A stretch of DNA of 64,000 nucleotides from Microvirga alba (GTDB lineage: Bacteria; Pseudomonadota; Alphaproteobacteria; Rhizobiales; Beijerinckiaceae), in assembly GCF_015694465.1 (NCBI RefSeq), contig NZ_JADQDO010000009.1, forward strand, positions 124,001 through 188,000. Direction: 5' to 3'. The notes below the pieces were generated by a model that had not been told where the DNA came from, searched no databases, and saw nothing but the letters and a program-made list of their open reading frames with translations. Positions 34,921-43,662 of the stretch are shown piece by piece (the first letter of the stretch is position 1; every line of letters starts with the position of its first letter). Made by a program: the position numbers and the translations under genes.

Positions 34921-36069
34921 ATGCCATCCTTTGCCGAACTGCTTCAGCAGGGCACCGCCCATGCCTGGCTGTTCATCCCAAGCGCCATCGCGCTGGGTGC
35001 TCTTCACGGTTTGGAGCCGGGCCATTCCAAGACCCTGATGGCGGCCTTCATCGTTGCCGTCCGGGGCACGGTCTGGCAGGCGGTTCTGCTCGGGCTCGCG
35101 GCGACGGTCTCCCATACGCTGGTCGTCTGGGGCATCGCGCTCGGCGGCATGTATCTCTGGCGCGACATGAACGCGGAAACAACGGAGCCCTATTTCCAGC
35201 TCGCGTCGGCTTTCTTTATCATCGGCATCGCGCTTTGGATGATCTGGCGGACGAGGCGGGACCGGAAATTCGCTGACGCCATGGACGGCCACCATCATCA
35301 TGATCACGGCCACACGCATGACCATCATCACCACGATGACATCCGGCATGTCGACACAGGGCACGGCGTTCTTGCGCTCGAAATTTTCGAGAAAGGCGTA
35401 CCGCCGCGCTGGCGCATTCGGCCGCTAAGCGGTCACGCATGGTCTGCGGCGAATGTGACGTTGGAAATCGAGCGCCCCGATGGCCAACGCCAAACCTTCG
35501 CCTTCGCGCAGCGCAACGGTTATCTCGAATCCGTTCAGGAAATTGCGGAGCCGCACGAATTCATGGCGCGGGTGAAGCTTTCACATGGCGATCATTCGCA
35601 TGACTACGACGTGTCTTTCGTGGAGGGACACGGCCATGATCCGATGCATGAGGAAGTCGAGGGGCTGGAACTGACGACCGACGGCTACCAGGACGCGCAC
35701 GAGCTGGCCCACGCCAACGACATCCGCCGCCGTTTCTCAGGCCGCAGCGTGACGACCTGGCAGATCGTTCTTTTCGGCCTGACCGGCGGCCTCATCCCCT
35801 GCCCCGCCGCGATCACGATTCTTTTGATCTGTCTGCAACTGAAGGAAATCACTCTCGGCGCGACGCTGGTGCTGTGCTTCAGCATCGGACTTGCGATCAC
35901 CCTGGTCTCGGTCGGCGCGGCTGCGGCCTTGAGCGTCCGCCACGCATCGGAGCGCTGGTCCTGGTTCAACACCGCCGCACAGCGTGCACCCTATCTGTCC
36001 GGTGCACTGATCATCCTGGTCGGCCTTTATGTCGGCCTGCACGGGTGGTGGGGTTTGCAGACAGGGTAG
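34921..36069 (+). CDS. rcnA: Nickel/cobalt efflux protein RcnA with inserted domain
   Basis: 382 residues against about 274 for E. coli RcnA. The two membrane halves match closely: HGLEPGHSKTLMAAFIVA near residue 27 and TGGLIPCPAAITILLICLQLK near 290. Between them is a His-rich loop (HHHHDHGHTHDHHHH, residues about 123-137) followed by about 100 extra residues (GVLALEIFEKGVPPRWRI through EPHEFMARVKLSHGDHSH) that look like a small beta domain. This resembles the domain at the N-terminus of some CzcB-type adaptors. The protein exports Ni and Co across the inner membrane. It is in an operon with the RcnR-type regulator. Confidence 0.95.
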   Translation: MPSFAELLQQGTAHAWLFIPSAIALGALHGLEPGHSKTLMAAFIVAVRGTVWQAVLLGLAATVSHTLVVWGIALGGMYLWRDMNAETTEPYFQLASAFFIIGIALWMIWRTRRDRKFADAMDGHHHHDHGHTHDHHHHDDIRHVDTGHGVLALEIFEKGVPPRWRIRPLSGHAWSAANVTLEIERPDGQRQTFAFAQRNGYLESVQEIAEPHEFMARVKLSHGDHSHDYDVSFVEGHGHDPMHEEVEGLELTTDGYQDAHELAHANDIRRRFSGRSVTTWQIVLFGLTGGLIPCPAAITILLICLQLKEITLGATLVLCFSIGLAITLVSVGAAAALSVRHASERWSWFNTAAQRAPYLSGALIILVGLYVGLHGWWGLQTG

Positions 36070-36145: not shown

Positions 36146-37309
36146 TTAAACGACGCCAGCGAGCGCGTTATCAAAGAGCTTGCGCGCGCTTTCCTTATTG
36201 ATCGGCACCGGGTTGCCGCCGGCGGTGGGATCGTTGGGAGCCATCTCCGACATTTCGTCGAAGCGGGCGTTGTCGACCTTCAGACCAGCGAGAGTGTGCG
36301 GCACGCCGAGATCCTTGCGCAGCTGCAGCACCCAGTCGAGGAAGGCCTGGAACGAGGGCTCAAGGCCGATATAGGCTGCAAGACGCTCGATCCTCTTCTC
36401 GATCGCCGCGCGGTTATAAACCAACACATACGGCATGAAGACCGCATTGGTGAGGCCGTGATGGGTGTCGTAGAGCGCGCCGGTCGGGTGCGAGAGCGCG
36501 TGGATCGCGCCCAGGCCCTTCTGGAACGCGGTGGCGCCCATGGCGGCGGCCGACATCATCTGCGCGCGGGCCTCAATGTCCGCGCCGTCCTTGTAAGCGC
36601 GCGGCAGGTATTCCTTCACGAGGCGGATGCCTTCCGCCGCGATGCCGTCGGCCATTGGGTGATAACCCGGCGCGCAATAAGCTTCGATGCAGTGCGCGAG
36701 CGCGTCGAGGCCCGTGCCCGCTGTGATGTGGGGGGGCATACCGACCGTCAGCTCCGGATCGCAGATCACGATCTTCGGCATCATGAGCGGATGGAAGATC
36801 ACCTTCTTGGTGTGCGTCGCTTCCTGCGTGATGACGCCGGCGCGACCGACTTCCGAGCCCGTGCCGGCGGTCGTCGGCACGGCGATGATCGGCGCGATGC
36901 CCTTGGGGTCCGCGCGGGTCCACCAATCGCCGATATCCTCGAAATCCCACATGGGGCGCGTCTGGCCCTTCATGAAGGCGATGACCTTGCCAGCATCGAG
37001 CGCCGAGCCGCCGCCGAAGGCGACGACGCCATCGTGATTGCCCGCCTTCAATGCCTCGAGGCCCTTATAGACATTGGTCTCAACCGGGTTCGGCTTGATG
37101 TCGGAGAAAATGCCCGCCTTGAGACCAGCGGCCTTCAGCGCTTCAAGCGCATTCTTCGTCATCGGCTGCGTCGCGAGGAACGGGTCGGTGACGATCAGCG
37201 GCGCGCTCATGCCGACAGCCTTGCAGGCCTCGGCGAGTTCCGAGATGCGGCCTGCGCCGAAGCGGATCGGGGTAGGGTAGCTCCAGTTGGAACGAGGAGA
37301 AACGGTCAT
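36146..37309 (-). CDS. Iron-containing alcohol dehydrogenase
   Basis: 387 residues from the ATG at 37309 (MTVSPRSNWSYPTPIRFG); a longer upstream extension is not family-like. Group III ADH fold: nucleotide binding GGGSALDAGK, TTAGTGSEVG, and the metal site with DALAHCIEAY, GAIHALSHPTGALYDTHHG. It oxidises an alcohol to an aldehyde with NAD(P) in the cytoplasm. It follows the aldehyde dehydrogenase gene by 11 bases, so the two steps alcohol to aldehyde to acid are co-expressed. In the context of the GS-like ligase and ethanolamine-type permease, a gamma-glutamyl amino-alcohol is a plausible substrate (inference). Confidence 0.94.
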   Translation of the reverse strand: MTVSPRSNWSYPTPIRFGAGRISELAEACKAVGMSAPLIVTDPFLATQPMTKNALEALKAAGLKAGIFSDIKPNPVETNVYKGLEALKAGNHDGVVAFGGGSALDAGKVIAFMKGQTRPMWDFEDIGDWWTRADPKGIAPIIAVPTTAGTGSEVGRAGVITQEATHTKKVIFHPLMMPKIVICDPELTVGMPPHITAGTGLDALAHCIEAYCAPGYHPMADGIAAEGIRLVKEYLPRAYKDGADIEARAQMMSAAAMGATAFQKGLGAIHALSHPTGALYDTHHGLTNAVFMPYVLVYNRAAIEKRIERLAAYIGLEPSFQAFLDWVLQLRKDLGVPHTLAGLKVDNARFDEMSEMAPNDPTAGGNPVPINKESARKLFDNALAGVV

Positions 37310-37320
37310 GTCAGTCACAC

Positions 37321-38712
37321 TCAGATCTGGCGGAGGTGGAAGGATTTCGGACGGGTGAGAGATTCGTAGGCAAGCTTCGACAGGCTGGCGCCGCGGCCCG
37401 TATCCTTCACGCCGGTCCAGGCGAGAGCGGGATCGAGATAGTCGCAACGATTCATGAAGACGGTGCCGGTCTCGAGCTTGTCACCAATGGCTTCCGCCGC
37501 ATCGATGTCGGAGGTCCAGATCGCGGCGGAGAGACCGTAGGGCGAGTCGTTCATGAGGCGGATCGCCTCTTCGTCGCCCTTCACCTTCATGATGCCGACG
37601 GTCGGCCCAAAGCTCTCTTCGCGCATGACGCTCATGGAGTGATCCACGTTGGTCAGTACCTGCGGTGCGAGGTAGGCGGTGTTGCCGACATCGGCGGCAA
37701 AACGCTTCGTGTCGATATGGGCTTTTGCGCCCTTCGCCACCGCTTCCGCATTTTGCTGGCGCACGAGATCGGCGAAGCGTTTATGCGCCATCGGGCCGAG
37801 GGTCGTGGCTTCATCGAGCGGGTTGCCGAGCACATACTTGTTCACGAGATCGACCGCGCCTTCGACGAAGCGGTCATAGTGACTCTCATGCACATAGATG
37901 CGCTCGATGCCGCAGCAGCATTGTCCCGAATTGAAGAACGCGCCGTCGACAAGGTTCTCGATGGCGTTCTCGATATTGGCGTCCGCCCGCACATAGGCCG
38001 GATCCTTGCCGCCGAGTTCGAGACCGAGCGAGGTGAAGGAACCCGCCGCCGCACGCTCGATGGACTTACCGCCGGAAACCGAGCCAGTGAAGTTGCAGTG
38101 ATCGACGAGGCCCTGGCCGAGGATGCGACTCGTCTGGTCGTGGCTGAGAACGAAGGTCTGGAACAGACCTTTCGGCAGACCAGCGCGGTCCGCTGCCATC
38201 TGGAAGCGCTCGCCCGCGAGGATCGTCTGCGAGGCGTGCTTCAAGAGTACCGCATTGCCGGCCATGAGCGCGGGCGCGATGCTGTTGATGGCCGTGAGAT
38301 ACGGATAGTTCCAAGGCGCCACGACCAGCACGAGACCGACCGGCTCGCGCTTGATCATGCGGCGGAAGCCCTCCTTCGGATCGTCTGCCGGAATCGCCTT
38401 GAGGCTCTCTTCCGCAATGCGCACCATGTAGCGTGCGCGCTCCTCGACCCCGCGGAATTCGCCGCCGTAGCGGACCGGGCGGCCCATCTGCTGAGCGATT
38501 TCCGGCACCACCTCCTGATTCATGGCGACCAGCGCGTCGAGCATGCCGAGCACCTTGGCGGCGCGTTCTGCAAGCGGCACGTGACGCCACTTGGCTTGCG
38601 CCTCGCGCGCTGCCTTGATCGCGGCGTCGATGGCAGCCTCGGACATGATGGGACGACGGACAAGTTCGCGCCCGTCGATGGGGGAAATACAGACGATATC
38701 GGTCTCGGCCAT
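37321..38712 (-). CDS. Aldehyde dehydrogenase (PuuC-like role)
   Basis: 463 residues from the ATG at 38712, with AAGAGAG upstream. Motifs: VAPWNYP, catalytic Glu in LELGGKDPAYV, catalytic cysteine in NSGQCCCGIERIYV (three adjacent cysteines), and EESFGPTVGIM. It oxidises an aldehyde to a carboxylate with NAD(P). It starts downstream of the terminator that follows the GS-like gene, so it likely has its own promoter within 38713-38780; a half-site TTGAACGA at 38722 matches half of the palindrome near the RpiR gene. It leads the Fe-ADH gene. Confidence 0.94.
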   Translation of the reverse strand: MAETDIVCISPIDGRELVRRPIMSEAAIDAAIKAAREAQAKWRHVPLAERAAKVLGMLDALVAMNQEVVPEIAQQMGRPVRYGGEFRGVEERARYMVRIAEESLKAIPADDPKEGFRRMIKREPVGLVLVVAPWNYPYLTAINSIAPALMAGNAVLLKHASQTILAGERFQMAADRAGLPKGLFQTFVLSHDQTSRILGQGLVDHCNFTGSVSGGKSIERAAAGSFTSLGLELGGKDPAYVRADANIENAIENLVDGAFFNSGQCCCGIERIYVHESHYDRFVEGAVDLVNKYVLGNPLDEATTLGPMAHKRFADLVRQQNAEAVAKGAKAHIDTKRFAADVGNTAYLAPQVLTNVDHSMSVMREESFGPTVGIMKVKGDEEAIRLMNDSPYGLSAAIWTSDIDAAEAIGDKLETGTVFMNRCDYLDPALAWTGVKDTGRGASLSKLAYESLTRPKSFHLRQI

Positions 38713-38780
38713 GATGCTCTCTTGAACGACTATGATCCCTGATGGGACCATAGCTTTCTTCTCTTGAAATGCCTCAAAAA

Positions 38781-38812
38781 ATCCGGGGAGGCCAATCGCC
38801 GCCTCCCCGGAT
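38781..38812 (-). terminator. Strong terminator after the GS-like ligase gene
   Basis: 12-bp stem ATCCGGGGAGGC / GCCTCCCCGGAT with an eight-base loop, followed on the minus strand by a run of six T. It lies just after the GS-like stop and separates that gene from the aldehyde dehydrogenase gene. Confidence 0.92.
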
Positions 38813-38819
38813 GCAGCGG

Positions 38820-40211
38820 TTAAATGATCTCGAAATAGCGGGCGAGCTGCCAGTCGGTGATGGCTTTGCGGGCCTCTCTTTCTTCCCATTCGCGCGTCGC
38901 CGCGTAATGGTCAACGAAGGTGTCGCCGAAGAGCTGACGGGCCGGCTTCGAGGCTTTTAGACGTTCTGCCGCTTCGCCGAGCGAACGCGGCAGCGCCCGC
39001 TTCTTCGGATGTTTCACGGCATAGGCGTTGCCCTGAATCGGCTCACCCGGATCGACCTTGTTCTCGATACCCCACAGGCCGGATCCGATGGCGGCGGCAA
39101 GCGCAATATAGGGATTGATGTCCGCCGCGGCGACGCGGTACTCGACGCGCTGCGACTTTTCGGAGCCCGGAATGACGCGAAGCGCGGTGGTGCGGTTTTC
39201 CACGCCCCAGGCGGAATCGGTCGGTGCCCAATAGCCCGGGATGAGGCGCGTATAGCTGTTCACCGTGCACGCAACCATCGACAGGAATTCCGGCATCAGC
39301 TGCTGCTGACCGCCGACGAACCAGCGCATGGTATCGGACATGTTGTGCGGCTTCTTGGGATCGTAGAACGCGCCCTTGCCGGTCTTAGTGTCCTTCAACG
39401 ACGCATGCAGATGGCCCGACTGGCCCGGCCAATCGCGCGACCACTTCGCCATGAAGGTCGCCATCAAACCGCGACGCTGAGCGAGGATCTTGGTGTAGGT
39501 CTTGAACAGAGCGGCCTTGTCGGCGGCCCTCAAAGCTTCGTCGACGCGGATCGCCGCTTCGAGAACGCCAGGGCCGGTCTCGGTATGAAGACCCTCGATC
39601 TCGAAATCCATTCGCGTTCCGAGATCCAGTAGCTCGTGATAGAATTCCGAGTGTACGCCGGAGCGCAGCACCGAGTAGCCGAAGAAGCCGGGCGTAAGGT
39701 TTTTCAGATCGCGATAGTTCTTCTCGCGCACCGAATGCGGTGTTTCCTCGAACATGAAAAATTCGAATTCCGCTGCCGCCGAGACGGCGAAGCCCATGTC
39801 GTCCGCCTTCTTCAACACGCGCCGCAGCAGACCGCGTGGGCAGGCTGCTTCCGCGTAGCCGTCGAACTCGGCCAGGAAGAACGGGAGGTCATTCTCAAAG
39901 GGGATGAGACGCATCGTTTCCGGCAGAATGCGCGCGGCTGCATCGGGATAGGCGGTGTGCCAACCGGTGAGCGTCGTGTTGTCATAGAGCTGGTCGTTCG
40001 AGTCCCAGCCGAGCACGACATCACACATGGCGAAGCCGCTTTGGAGGGCGGATTCGAACTTGTCGCGGGCCATGTATTTGCCACGCATGACGCCGTCGAC
40101 ATCGACGACGCCGATTTTCACGAAGGGCAGGTCACGGCTGCGCACATAAGCCGCGGCCTCGGCTGCCGTCTTGATCTTGGGAGTGTCCATACGGAGTGTG
40201 GGGGCGTTCAT
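38820..40211 (-). CDS. Glutamine-synthetase-like gamma-glutamyl-amine ligase (PuuA/GlnA4-like)
   Basis: 463 residues of the GS fold: an N-terminal beta-grasp part (KIGVVDVDGVMRGKYMARDKF), metal-binding AAEFEFFMFEE, GPGVLEAAIR, and the phosphate/ATP region HLHASLKD and RVIPGSEKSQRVEYRVAAADINPY. The group joins glutamate through its gamma-carboxyl to an amine such as putrescine (PuuA) or ethanolamine (Streptomyces GlnA4) at the cost of ATP. Genomic context, an ethanolamine-type permease directly upstream and alcohol and aldehyde dehydrogenases downstream, favours an amino-alcohol. A strong hairpin separates it from the permease gene and a terminator follows it. Confidence 0.92.
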   Translation of the reverse strand: MNAPTLRMDTPKIKTAAEAAAYVRSRDLPFVKIGVVDVDGVMRGKYMARDKFESALQSGFAMCDVVLGWDSNDQLYDNTTLTGWHTAYPDAAARILPETMRLIPFENDLPFFLAEFDGYAEAACPRGLLRRVLKKADDMGFAVSAAAEFEFFMFEETPHSVREKNYRDLKNLTPGFFGYSVLRSGVHSEFYHELLDLGTRMDFEIEGLHTETGPGVLEAAIRVDEALRAADKAALFKTYTKILAQRRGLMATFMAKWSRDWPGQSGHLHASLKDTKTGKGAFYDPKKPHNMSDTMRWFVGGQQQLMPEFLSMVACTVNSYTRLIPGYWAPTDSAWGVENRTTALRVIPGSEKSQRVEYRVAAADINPYIALAAAIGSGLWGIENKVDPGEPIQGNAYAVKHPKKRALPRSLGEAAERLKASKPARQLFGDTFVDHYAATREWEEREARKAITDWQLARYFEII

Positions 40212-40241
40212 GCCGAAAACCTAACGGATATGAAGAAGGGA

Positions 40242-40263
40242 GGGAGCGCACGAATGCGCTCCC
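40242..40263 (-). other. Intercistronic hairpin between permease and GS-like genes
   Basis: 9-bp stem GGGAGCGCA / TGCGCTCCC closed by a CGAA tetraloop, between the permease stop and the ligase start. There is no T-tract on the minus strand, so it is more likely an mRNA stability element or attenuating structure than a terminator. Confidence 0.6.
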
Positions 40264-40270
40264 GGAACGG

Positions 40271-41803
40271 TCAATGGGACTTGTATTCGCTCTCACCTTT
40301 GGTGAGGGCGAACTCTTCCTCGGGGGAGAGAATGAGCTTGTGGCGACCCCAGATCAGGAAGTAGGCCATCATCACGGCGTAGTAGACGGCAACGCCGAGC
40401 ACCCCTACCTGGAATACGGGATCCGTGAACTGGAAGTAGAGCGTGATCGCCGCGATGATCATGCAGACCACCGCGCCCGCGTTTCCGAACGGGCTCTTGT
40501 AGGGCCGGTTGATGTGCGGGAACTTCTTCTTCAGGGTGATGTAGGACATGCCCTGCATGAAGTAAGCCAGCATCGCACCCGCCACCGCCATGTTGAGCAG
40601 CGTGCCGCCGATGACGTTCGCACCGGCCTCGGCACCGACCGCGAACCAGATGATCAGCATCACCACAAGACCGATCACGGCACCTGCGATCAACGCCACG
40701 TGCGGCGTCTTACGGCTGCCGTGGGTGATGGACAGGAACCTCGGGAAATAGCCCGCCCGCGAGAGCGAGTAGATCTGCCGACCGAAGGCGAAGATGATGG
40801 TGTGGAACGAGGCGATGAGGCCGATCACCGCGATGGCGGCAAGAATCTTCGCGATATCCGAACCGAAGATGGTGCGGAAGCCGTCCAGCAGAGGCTCGCC
40901 CGATTTGGCAAGACCCGCCGCACCCGGCGCGATGCTCGTGTTCAGGAAGGTCACGAGAAAGGCCGAGACGATGAGCGTCATGATGCCTGCGATGATGCCC
41001 TTGGGCATATCATTCTGCGGATCGTGCGACTCTTCCGCCGCCAACGGCAACTGCTCGATGGCAAGGAACAGCCAGACCGCGAACGGCATGGTCATGAAAA
41101 TGCCCTTGATGCCGAAAGGCAGGAACGGTCCGCCGCCCTTCGGCAGCTCCGCGCCATCAGCGCCGATGTTCAGCGCCCAGCGGGAAAAGTCGAGCTGACC
41201 CGAGAACAAGACTGACAGATAGAATGCGACGAGAACCGCGAGAGCCATCACGGTCACGGTCACAGTGACTTTGAACGAGAGTTCGACGCCGACGATGTTC
41301 AGACCTACGAACAAGGCGTAGGACAACACCCAGTAGACCGGCTGGAATTCGGGCGCCGTGCCGAAGATGGCCGAAAGATACGAGCTGATGAAGAATACGA
41401 TCACGGCCGGTGTCAGCACGAATTCGATATTCTCGGCGATGCCGGTGATGTAGCCCGCCCACGGACCCATCGCGGTGCGTGCGAAAGAATAAGCGCCACC
41501 CGTGTGCGGAAGCGCCGGCGACATCTCGGCGAGCGAGAATGTCAGGCCCAGATACATCGTCGCGATGATGATGGTCGCGAAGAGCATCGAACCGTAGCCC
41601 TGCGCCAAGCCCAGATTCCATCCGGAATAGTGGCCCGAAACGACCGCGCCGACGCCGAGCGCCCACAATGACCAGACGCGGGCGTAACGTTTCAGACGCC
41701 GTGCCTCGAAATAACTGTCATCCACTTTAGTGTAGGTGATGCCGGCAGCGCCTTGCGCTCCGGCGGAGGCTTGCGCCCCCGTGCTCCCCCGTCCGACTGA
41801 CAT
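40271..41803 (-). CDS. Amino acid/amine permease, ethanolamine permease-like (APC superfamily)
   Basis: 510 residues from the ATG at 41803, which has a strong GGAGGAAGAG site; a GTG 23 codons upstream overlapping the previous stop is less likely. About 12 membrane helices. The N-terminal block YTKVDDSYFEARRLKRYARVW, then SGHYSGWNLGLAQGYGS and MYLGLTFSLAEMSPALPHTGGAYSFAR, is characteristic of the ethanolamine permease group of the APC family. It would import ethanolamine or a similar amine with protons. It lies between the amidohydrolase and ligase genes in one minus-strand block, 65 bases after the former. Confidence 0.88.
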   Translation of the reverse strand: MSVGRGSTGAQASAGAQGAAGITYTKVDDSYFEARRLKRYARVWSLWALGVGAVVSGHYSGWNLGLAQGYGSMLFATIIIATMYLGLTFSLAEMSPALPHTGGAYSFARTAMGPWAGYITGIAENIEFVLTPAVIVFFISSYLSAIFGTAPEFQPVYWVLSYALFVGLNIVGVELSFKVTVTVTVMALAVLVAFYLSVLFSGQLDFSRWALNIGADGAELPKGGGPFLPFGIKGIFMTMPFAVWLFLAIEQLPLAAEESHDPQNDMPKGIIAGIMTLIVSAFLVTFLNTSIAPGAAGLAKSGEPLLDGFRTIFGSDIAKILAAIAVIGLIASFHTIIFAFGRQIYSLSRAGYFPRFLSITHGSRKTPHVALIAGAVIGLVVMLIIWFAVGAEAGANVIGGTLLNMAVAGAMLAYFMQGMSYITLKKKFPHINRPYKSPFGNAGAVVCMIIAAITLYFQFTDPVFQVGVLGVAVYYAVMMAYFLIWGRHKLILSPEEEFALTKGESEYKSH

Positions 41804-41868
41804 CGACTCTTCCTCCAAGAAGTAAGTCTGCCCTCTGAGCCACGGCACACCTCGCGCCATGGCCGTCG

Positions 41869-42657
41869 TCACAGCGTCTGCGCACCCTCCCTCAAGAGTG
41901 GCGCAAGACGATTAGACCACGACGCCTGTCCGTCTTCTGTGCGAATCAGGTCGTTGCGGATTTCGATCATCAGGGGCACGAGGCCGCGCCGCACTGCATG
42001 GCGGTCGAGGGTGTGGAACACCCGATCCGCCGGAGAATAGGGTTCGTTCATGCCGATGGTGAGCGCGGGATCGCGCTTCAGGCCGGCCTCGACATTGCGC
42101 GCGTAGCGCGCGTCCTCATCGAAGATCAGACCGATCTCCCAGGGGCGCTGGACGCCCTTGTAAACCGGTGTGAAGGAATGGATCGAGACGACCGCGGTGA
42201 CCTGCCCCGCCGCCTTGCGCGCCTCGGCGAATTCATCCACGGCGCGGTGGAACGGCTCATAAACCTCCGCAACGCGGCGGGCGCGTTCTGTCGGGTCGAG
42301 GTCGAGATTGCCGGGAACGGTGGTGCGCTCGCTCAATGCCGTGATCGAGTCCGGCGCGGATGGAGCACGGTTGAGGTCGAGCACGAGGCGCGACACCGTT
42401 GCGTGAACCAAAGGCGCATCGAGCAGGCGCGACAAACCGCGCGCAACGCCCAACGCGCCGGGATCCCAGGCGATGTGGCTCTCGAGCTCAGCAGGCCCCA
42501 GGCCAAGCATGCCGTAACGAGATGGAAGATGCCTGGAAGCGTGCTCGCAGATCAGCAGAACAGGCGAGCGCCCCTGAGCATTCTCGACGCGAGCGACCGG
42601 CTCGCCGGCCTGCGCAGCAGACCGGGCATCGGCATCCATACGACTCGCATGCGTCAT
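41869..42657 (-). CDS. N-formylglutamate amidohydrolase-like enzyme
   Basis: 262 residues of the FGase (HutG-type) family: LLICEHASRHLP near residue 35 with the metal-binding Glu and His, HIAWDPGA, LVLDLNR, VSIHSFTPVYKG and IEIRNDLI. A GGAGGG site precedes the ATG. Known members hydrolyse N-formylglutamate to glutamate, and related ones act on other N- or gamma-linked glutamate amides. Here no hut genes are present; position at the head of the permease-ligase block suggests it cleaves a gamma-glutamyl product, releasing glutamate (inference). Confidence 0.9.
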   Translation of the reverse strand: MTHASRMDADARSAAQAGEPVARVENAQGRSPVLLICEHASRHLPSRYGMLGLGPAELESHIAWDPGALGVARGLSRLLDAPLVHATVSRLVLDLNRAPSAPDSITALSERTTVPGNLDLDPTERARRVAEVYEPFHRAVDEFAEARKAAGQVTAVVSIHSFTPVYKGVQRPWEIGLIFDEDARYARNVEAGLKRDPALTIGMNEPYSPADRVFHTLDRHAVRRGLVPLMIEIRNDLIRTEDGQASWSNRLAPLLREGAQTL

Positions 42658-42701
42658 GCGGCCCTCCGTTGGCTCGTCATTGCGAGCCTCATTCCCTACG
42701 T

Positions 42702-42720
42702 TGAACGATTGATACGTTCA
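42702..42720. promoter_or_regulatory. Candidate RpiR operator
   Basis: Perfect inverted repeat TGAACG / CGTTCA with a seven-base centre, in the 138-base gap between the divergent amidohydrolase and RpiR genes and 45 bases upstream of the amidohydrolase start. A half-site TTGAACGA recurs just before the aldehyde dehydrogenase start. GAAATTTC at 42740-42747 is a second small palindrome. Confidence 0.55.
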
Positions 42721-42795
42721 TTCTTGTTTTTGCTATTTTGAAATTTCTGATACAGCTTTTCGAAGGCGTCAAGGAGGGGGACCGAACAATCTCAC

Positions 42796-43662
42796 ATGCG
42801 TGATGAAACTCTTGCCCCCGTTGCCGACCAGCCGAGTCTCGCGGAGCGCATCCGCCACGAGATGGATTCGTTCACGCCGAGCGAGAAGCGCGCCGCCCAT
42901 CTCCTTCTGAGCCATTATCCGTTCGCCGGTCTCGACACCGTGGCAGGATTTGCCTCCCGGGCAGGAATCTCCGGGCCCTCGGCCTTGCGTTTCGTCACCC
43001 GGCTCGGTTTCAGCGGTTTTCCGGACTTCCAGAAGCATTTGCGCGAGGAGTTGGAGGCGCAACTTCTGTCGCCGCTCGCCAAGTCCGGTCCGATCGACAC
43101 AGGACCAGGTGCCTCGGCACTCGCCTCGTTCGCCAACGCGGTGATCGGCAATCTCAAAGCAACGGTGGAAAACATCGCGCCGGCCGAATTCGATGCGGTC
43201 GTGACCCTGCTGAGTGATCCGCGACGGAACATCCATTTCACCGGTGGACGTTTCACCGGCGCGGTGGCGCGCTACGCCGAAAGCCACTTCCGAATCGTCC
43301 GCAGTCACGTCGATTTCATCGAAGGGCAGCCCGCCCTGTGGCGCGACCGGATGATCGAGATCGGCCGCAAGGACGTTATCGTCGCCTTCGACATCCGTCG
43401 TTATCAGGAGGACGTGACCGCCCTGTGCGAGACCGGGGCAAAGCAGGGCGCAACGATCGTCCTCCTCACCGACCCCTGGCTCTCGCCCATCGCCCGGGTG
43501 GCGCGCCATGTCCTGCCCGCCCACATCACCGCGCCCTCGAACTGGGATTCCTCGGCAGGTCTTCTCCTCCTGACCGAAGCGCTCGTCTCAGCGGTAACGA
43601 AGCGCCTGTGGGATACCGCGAAGCCGCGCATGGAGGCCGTGGAGCGGCTACGCAACAGATGA
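42796..43662 (+). CDS. MurR/RpiR family transcriptional regulator
   Basis: 288 residues. The N-terminal HTH_6 domain spans about 1-90 (PSEKRAAHLLLSHYPFAGLDTVAGFASRAGISGPSALRFVTRLGFSGFPDFQ). The SIS sugar-isomerase-like effector domain covers about 130-260 (NIHFTGGRFTGAVARYAESHF, DVIVAFDIRRY). RpiR proteins bind phosphorylated sugars or other small metabolites. It is divergent from the amidohydrolase-permease-ligase block and is its most likely regulator. The only strong ribosome site (GGAGGGGG) is unusually far, about 15 bases, from the ATG, so the true start context is uncertain. Confidence 0.92.
   Translation: MRDETLAPVADQPSLAERIRHEMDSFTPSEKRAAHLLLSHYPFAGLDTVAGFASRAGISGPSALRFVTRLGFSGFPDFQKHLREELEAQLLSPLAKSGPIDTGPGASALASFANAVIGNLKATVENIAPAEFDAVVTLLSDPRRNIHFTGGRFTGAVARYAESHFRIVRSHVDFIEGQPALWRDRMIEIGRKDVIVAFDIRRYQEDVTALCETGAKQGATIVLLTDPWLSPIARVARHVLPAHITAPSNWDSSAGLLLLTEALVSAVTKRLWDTAKPRMEAVERLRNR

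Follow-up and report, generated by a model that had tools for sequence, protein, structure and literature searches.

In Chromohalobacter salexigens, ethanolamine is used via a gamma-glutamylation pathway (Vetting et al., 2015, as cited in PMC9397018, PMC10132767, PMC6529630, PMC4646407, and PMC12410723), for which Table 2 of a 2022 review lists the protein families PF00120, PF00465, PF00171, and PF05013 (PMC9397018). The genes MED193_10021-10056 of Phaeobacter sp. MED193 were described in 2023 in the order RpiR regulator, gamma-glutamylglycine amidohydrolase, TRAP transporter EtoVWX, ligase, aldehyde dehydrogenase (ALDH), and alcohol dehydrogenase (ADH), and five of the eight products (the hydrolase, EtoX, the ligase, ALDH, and ADH) were raised on phosphorylethanolamine (PMC10132767). 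A 2019 paper on Streptomyces proposed a member of the formylglutamate amidohydrolase (FGase) family for the last step (PMC6529630). Here, we describe a six-gene cluster at positions 36146–43662 of a 64,000-nucleotide stretch of the Microvirga alba genome (positions 124,001–188,000 of contig NZ_JADQDO010000009.1; referred to as the window, to which all positions apply). We regard it with good confidence as an operon for the catabolism of ethanolamine via the known gamma-glutamylation route, and it is very probable that it represents a real, conserved member of this pathway.

All six genes are present at the coordinates given in an earlier note on this DNA, and a Pfam scan confirmed the families assigned there. 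Five genes are encoded on the minus strand, namely those for an iron-containing ADH (36146–37309; PF00465 and PF25137), an ALDH (37321–38712; PF00171 Aldedh, 386 bits), a glutamine synthetase (GS)-like ligase (38820–40211; PF00120 Gln-synt_C, 320 bits), an APC-family permease (40271–41803; PF13520/PF00324), and an FGase-family amidohydrolase (41869–42657; PF05013, 143 bits), followed by a divergent gene for an RpiR-family regulator on the plus strand (42796–43662; PF01418 and PF01380). As read from the sequence and its open reading frames, the ADH gene most likely starts at 37309, not at the TTG codon at 37447, and the starts of the ALDH (38712) and permease (41803) genes were corrected in the same way. 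With these starts, short gaps of 11, 107, 59, and 65 bp remain within the minus-strand group, and a single transcription unit therefore appears plausible from the sequence. We infer the following reactions, substrates, and regulation. The permease would import ethanolamine, which the GS-like enzyme, as the proposed ethanolamine gamma-glutamylase, would join to glutamate at the expense of ATP. The gamma-glutamylethanolamide formed would be oxidized by the iron-containing ADH to gamma-glutamylacetaldehyde, and the latter by the ALDH to gamma-glutamylglycine. As a zinc-carboxypeptidase-like amidohydrolase, the FGase would finally cleave gamma-glutamylglycine as an N-acylglycine, yielding glycine and returning the glutamate. 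The operon is probably under the control of the RpiR protein, which would act in the 138-bp gap between its own gene and that of the FGase. This route of import, ligation, two oxidations, and amide cleavage, as the earlier note had proposed it, is the best supported explanation of the locus.

The connection to ethanolamine is provided by loci containing the ethanolamine-binding protein EtoX, which was found in 46 of 385 alphaproteobacterial genomes. Among the 40 of these loci which were analysed, 15 contain an FGase gene nearby, 14 contain RpiR together with FGase, and one contains a class I glutamine amidotransferase (GATase) gene. A complete set of RpiR, FGase, GS, ALDH, and ADH genes is present together with TRAP genes in eight of the 40 loci, which show the Phaeobacter-type gene order, in one case with the TRAP genes rearranged. 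The proteins of the eight complete loci are identical to those of the window by 34–41% (RpiR), 42–49% (FGase), 30–33% (GS), 58–62% (ALDH), and 56–63% (ADH), and the window therefore shares the regulator, the hydrolase, and the dehydrogenases with these operons, but not the ligase. The ligases of the EtoX/FGase operons are referred to here as branch B, which is set apart from that of the window (branch A) by sequence identity and not by a shared tree; co-oriented GS-like genes located downstream in 12 of the 40 EtoX loci belong to the other branch in 11 cases and to branch A in one. Branch A has its own links to the transporter, since a survey of its best matches (128 loci not drawn at random, reduced to 121 by omitting seven near-duplicates of at least 99% identity; 95 with full context) contains nine non-redundant loci in which the ligase gene lies beside EtoX, three of these with cut context. 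In Litchfieldella (L125) and Thalassospira (L084), the TRAP binding proteins encoded next to branch-A ligases match structure 4uab with 517 and 552 bits, respectively; according to PMC12410723, this structure represents Csal_0678 with bound ethanolamine. The gene families, their order and conservation, and the linkage between related parts and the gene for an ethanolamine-binding protein are matters of direct observation. As a side observation, four EtoX matches (G033 [L227], G105 [L234], G162, and G260) carry one in-frame stop codon each, three of them TGA in a single genus and one TAG, and these genes may be decaying or read otherwise.

Matches to the window ligase (E ≤ 1e-60) occur in 77 of 289 sampled alphaproteobacterial genomes, 46 of them with 60–100% identity (including its own genome) and the remainder with at most 46%. 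Within the family, 23 of 149 genomes contain matches at E ≤ 1e-100; six of these are from the same genus (own genome included), which is absent from the 20 unmatched genomes listed (106 others being unlisted). The closest named relative among the best 80 of 586 is a protein from Microvirga flavescens with 95% identity, in a scan from which records nearest to the host genome may have been excluded. With regard to the conservation of the six-gene neighbourhood, which the earlier note had named as a check on its proposal, the tblastn tables show 13 loci among the 121 in which every one of the six gene types is found within the counted distances of the ligase gene; 12 are of the Microvirga type, and the thirteenth (L105) has a different gene order. 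The transporters in the 95 full-context loci vary between APC permeases (30 loci; a mixed class with identities to the window permease down to 34%), a second permease type named by appearance (APC2; 11 loci), and TRAP genes (12 loci), requiring at least 15 changes on a quick GS tree, whose first version had contained many weak forks.

The hydrolases encoded beside branch-A ligases also belong to two types, which are represented by FGase in 22 and by GATase in 27 of the 95 full-context loci (the latter detected with five queries, two of them, L180 and L181, chosen by record annotation and the other three by Pfam). Within the counted distances the two never occur together (0 of 95; Fisher p = 2.8e-4, a value inflated by kinship), and the hydrolase type changes at least five times on the same quick tree. 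The FGase of the window was modelled with a mean pLDDT of 92.9, and the best Foldseek matches of the model are Atu2144 (2odf, 48% identical) and an N-formylglutamate amidohydrolase (2q7s, 21%). Weaker matches (query-length TM below 0.5) to YndL and a phage poly-gamma-glutamate hydrolase (5onj, 3a9l) as well as to carboxypeptidases suggest a distant relationship between the predicted fold and that of poly-gamma-glutamate hydrolases. Residues N96-R97 are kept in all 30 rows of the alignment. In carboxypeptidase-like enzymes, an Asn-Arg pair binds the carboxylate beside the scissile amide. By analogy, the conserved pair would fit the N-acylglycine gamma-glutamylglycine but not gamma-glutamylethanolamide, and it is for this reason that the FGase is placed at the last step. 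That the FGase is instead the N-formylglutamate deformylase HutG and merely a neighbour of the operon might be suggested by the family name of PF05013 and by the presence of five FGases in the genome, but its score of 22.6 bits with the HutG model TIGR02017 is far below the cut-off of 278.75, and HutG was rejected on these values. FGase genes moreover lie near branch-A GS genes (22 of 95 loci) and EtoX (15 of 40), and within the counted distances they are replaced by GATase but never occur alongside it, which makes this identity extremely improbable. In an FGase tree, the window and the other Microvirga-type sequences group with Roseiarcus (L069) and two other loci, and the 15 FGases of EtoX loci form a separate group, in which two further FGases of branch-A loci and two obtained in the family survey are also placed. 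Four changes between operon-associated and other FGases are needed on this tree, indicating that the association was gained or lost several times or that the latter set includes unrecognized operon members; an RpiR gene lies divergently beside one of these other FGases (L046). The five FGases and nine Peptidase_C26-type matches of the host genome (4.42 Mb in 25 contigs, 99.98% complete) show that it contains further hydrolases.

Several results weigh against the assignment to ethanolamine. The window ligase shares only 31–32% identity by alignment with three ligases encoded in EtoX loci (two of the three belonging to complete gene sets), which are 47–82% identical among themselves, and it matches 5dm3, which we take to be a Chromohalobacter protein, with 199 bits compared with 774 bits for one of the EtoX-locus ligases. 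By these values it does not qualify as an ortholog of the EtoX/FGase-operon ligases, and its specificity is therefore not transferable by orthology. The C. salexigens ligase itself, as judged from sequence comparison, probably belongs to branch B. With 8wwu, presumably the GoaS enzyme NpaA1, the window ligase scores 142 bits. An ALDH gene is found in 73 and an ADH gene in 75 of the 95 full-context loci, but both are present in only 62, and in 46 of the 95 neither hydrolase occurs nearby; other amines may be the substrates of some ligases in this branch. An FGase gene is likewise missing from the vicinity of 25 of the 40 EtoX loci. None of the nine loci combining a branch-A ligase with EtoX holds an FGase (four hold a GATase), and the window-type FGase is therefore tied to EtoX solely via operons with the other ligase. 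The exclusivity of the two hydrolases is affected by kinship, because 12 of the 23 FGase loci are of the Microvirga type, and by locus L074, in which a GATase gene at +4.0 kb is accompanied by an FGase gene at −6.5 kb, beyond the counted distance. Finally, the permease misses the cut-off of its best NCBIfam model, TIGR00908 "ethanolamine permease" (341.2 bits over residues 35–498; cut-off 381.75).

The same chemistry may be directed at a different amino alcohol, such as 3-aminopropanol or alaninol, with ethanolamine as a minor substrate or none at all. The distinctness of branch A, the variability of its neighbourhoods, and the use of gamma-glutamylation for many amines, as represented by the GoaS class (PMC11335346), agree with this option. 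Nevertheless, we consider it rather unlikely, because the FGase, ALDH, ADH, and RpiR proteins resemble their counterparts in EtoX operons, branch A itself occurs beside EtoX, and the model best matching the permease is still that of an ethanolamine permease. Oxidation of a secondary alcohol, for example 1-amino-2-propanol, would moreover yield a ketone and hence leave the ALDH without a role. A function of the GS-like gene in the glutamylation of polyamines, as known for PuuA, or in ammonia assimilation would agree with the weak similarities to the gamma-glutamylputrescine synthetase model NF045547 (GGputSyn, 199 bits) and to GlnA (224 bits), but these scores are far below the cut-offs of 650 and 429.15, respectively, and both identities were rejected; the type III GS model was also missed (187 bits, cut-off 469.6). 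A separate GlnA-like gene is present in the genome, no polyamine oxidase or PuuD-type hydrolase occurs among the six genes, and the ADH would be without a role, which makes such a function highly improbable. Compared with NCBIfam, the ADH is closest to 4-hydroxybutyrate dehydrogenase (340.6 bits, below the cut-off of 500) and fails to reach the EutG cut-off (192.5 bits, cut-off 556), and the ALDH reaches none of the cut-offs among the 25 of 44 matches listed. The earlier note had seen no genes for microcompartment-associated ethanolamine use, and this holds genome-wide for EutB ammonia-lyase and microcompartment (BMC) shell proteins, which gave no match in searches with positive Escherichia coli controls in both cases; a Eut-type route was therefore rejected. 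EtoX is also without a match in the genome at E ≤ 1e-80.

With regard to regulation of the proposed ethanolamine operon, RpiR genes are present in 20 of the 95 full-context branch-A loci, 16 of which also contain FGase, corresponding to 16 of the 22 full-context FGase loci. The gap between the FGase and RpiR genes contains a block with the consensus TGTAtCArAAATTtCA, which is conserved, apart from minor deviations, in the window and in 12 Microvirga-type loci and is weaker in Roseiarcus (L069). In the window, the candidate operator or promoter element TGAAATTTCTGATACAG is located at 42739–42755, without an assigned strand, and may serve as the binding site of the RpiR protein. A wider search with patterns of this type was mostly negative, with matches in four of the 21 RpiR gaps listed, and the operator is therefore proposed for Microvirga-type loci only. 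The operon is adjoined at 34921–36069 by an open reading frame for a histidine-rich membrane protein resembling nickel/cobalt exporters by appearance.

Further ligase neighbourhoods were observed in the survey. In five Reyranella-type loci (L101, L124, L128, L099, and L114), the gene for a branch-A ligase and TRAP genes precede a gene for a protein with the appearance of a dimethylglycine/sarcosine dehydrogenase; ADH genes occur in L101, L124, and L128, the usual ALDH gene does not adjoin, and another amine is perhaps the substrate. Related ligases with 54–56% identity are encoded on Rhizobium leguminosarum plasmids (L180 and L182) together with an ALDH, a GMC oxidoreductase, a LysE exporter, a member of the gamma-glutamyl-GABA hydrolase family, and an aminoethylphosphonate transaminase, a combination suggestive of another pathway for gamma-glutamyl amines. 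On plasmids of Rhodobacteraceae M382 (L177) and Pseudorhizobium (L178), ligases with 55–57% identity adjoin genes for a transaminase, a P1 peptidase, a polyamine-type ABC transporter, and a dimethylformamidase-like protein, in L177 additionally with FGase and ALDH.

Taken together, we lean slightly toward a modular kit, in which two distant branches of GS-like ligases, either FGase or GATase, and several transporters are combined around a conserved ADH/ALDH pair, with branch A as an uncharacterized family of ethanolamine ligases across Proteobacteria and GATase as an unrecognized gamma-glutamylglycine hydrolase. No description of the GATase variant was found in searches of the open-licence literature, as judged by the listed titles and openings of abstracts. 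Phospholipid-derived ethanolamine commonly serves as a source of nitrogen, and the gamma-glutamyl route requires neither microcompartments nor B12. In some records, the ligase is now annotated as glutamine synthetase and the hydrolase as GMP synthase or N-formylglutamate amidohydrolase, and a demonstrated swap of ligases and hydrolases around constant dehydrogenases would enable annotators to recognize the pathway in more genomes.

A comparison with the described systems places the operon within a known pathway. It combines PF00120, PF00465, PF00171, and PF05013 as in C. salexigens, which employs a TRAP binding protein in place of the APC permease of the window. The gene order is that given for Phaeobacter sp. 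MED193, with RpiR and the hydrolase upstream of the transporter, ligase, ALDH, and ADH, but the window encodes an APC permease in the position of EtoVWX, and the ligases of surveyed operons with this order are only 30–33% identical to that of the window, MED193 itself being compared by description only. The GlnA4 cluster of Streptomyces coelicolor (SCO1610-1615), also compared by description, contains a GS-like ligase reported to be a gamma-glutamylethanolamide synthetase, with the same later steps proposed, although the legend to Figure 2 names a short-chain dehydrogenase (PMC6529630). The same legend lists orf5 as a glutamine amidotransferase, whereas the text assigns SCO1615 to the formylglutamate amidohydrolase family, if orf5 is SCO1615. 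PuuA and other GoaS-class ligases are GS-like enzymes forming gamma-glutamyl amides, like that of the window, but differ in the later steps. The earlier note had considered an FGase-type final hydrolase as new, and this part of its proposal falls, because the families, the FGase last step, and the gene order are already in print in PMC9397018 (where PF05013 is listed), PMC6529630 (where the family is proposed), and PMC10132767. The operon opens no new biochemical principle; what appears mildly new in relation to these systems is the modular picture, in which a single pair of dehydrogenases is combined with ligases of two branches and hydrolases of two families.

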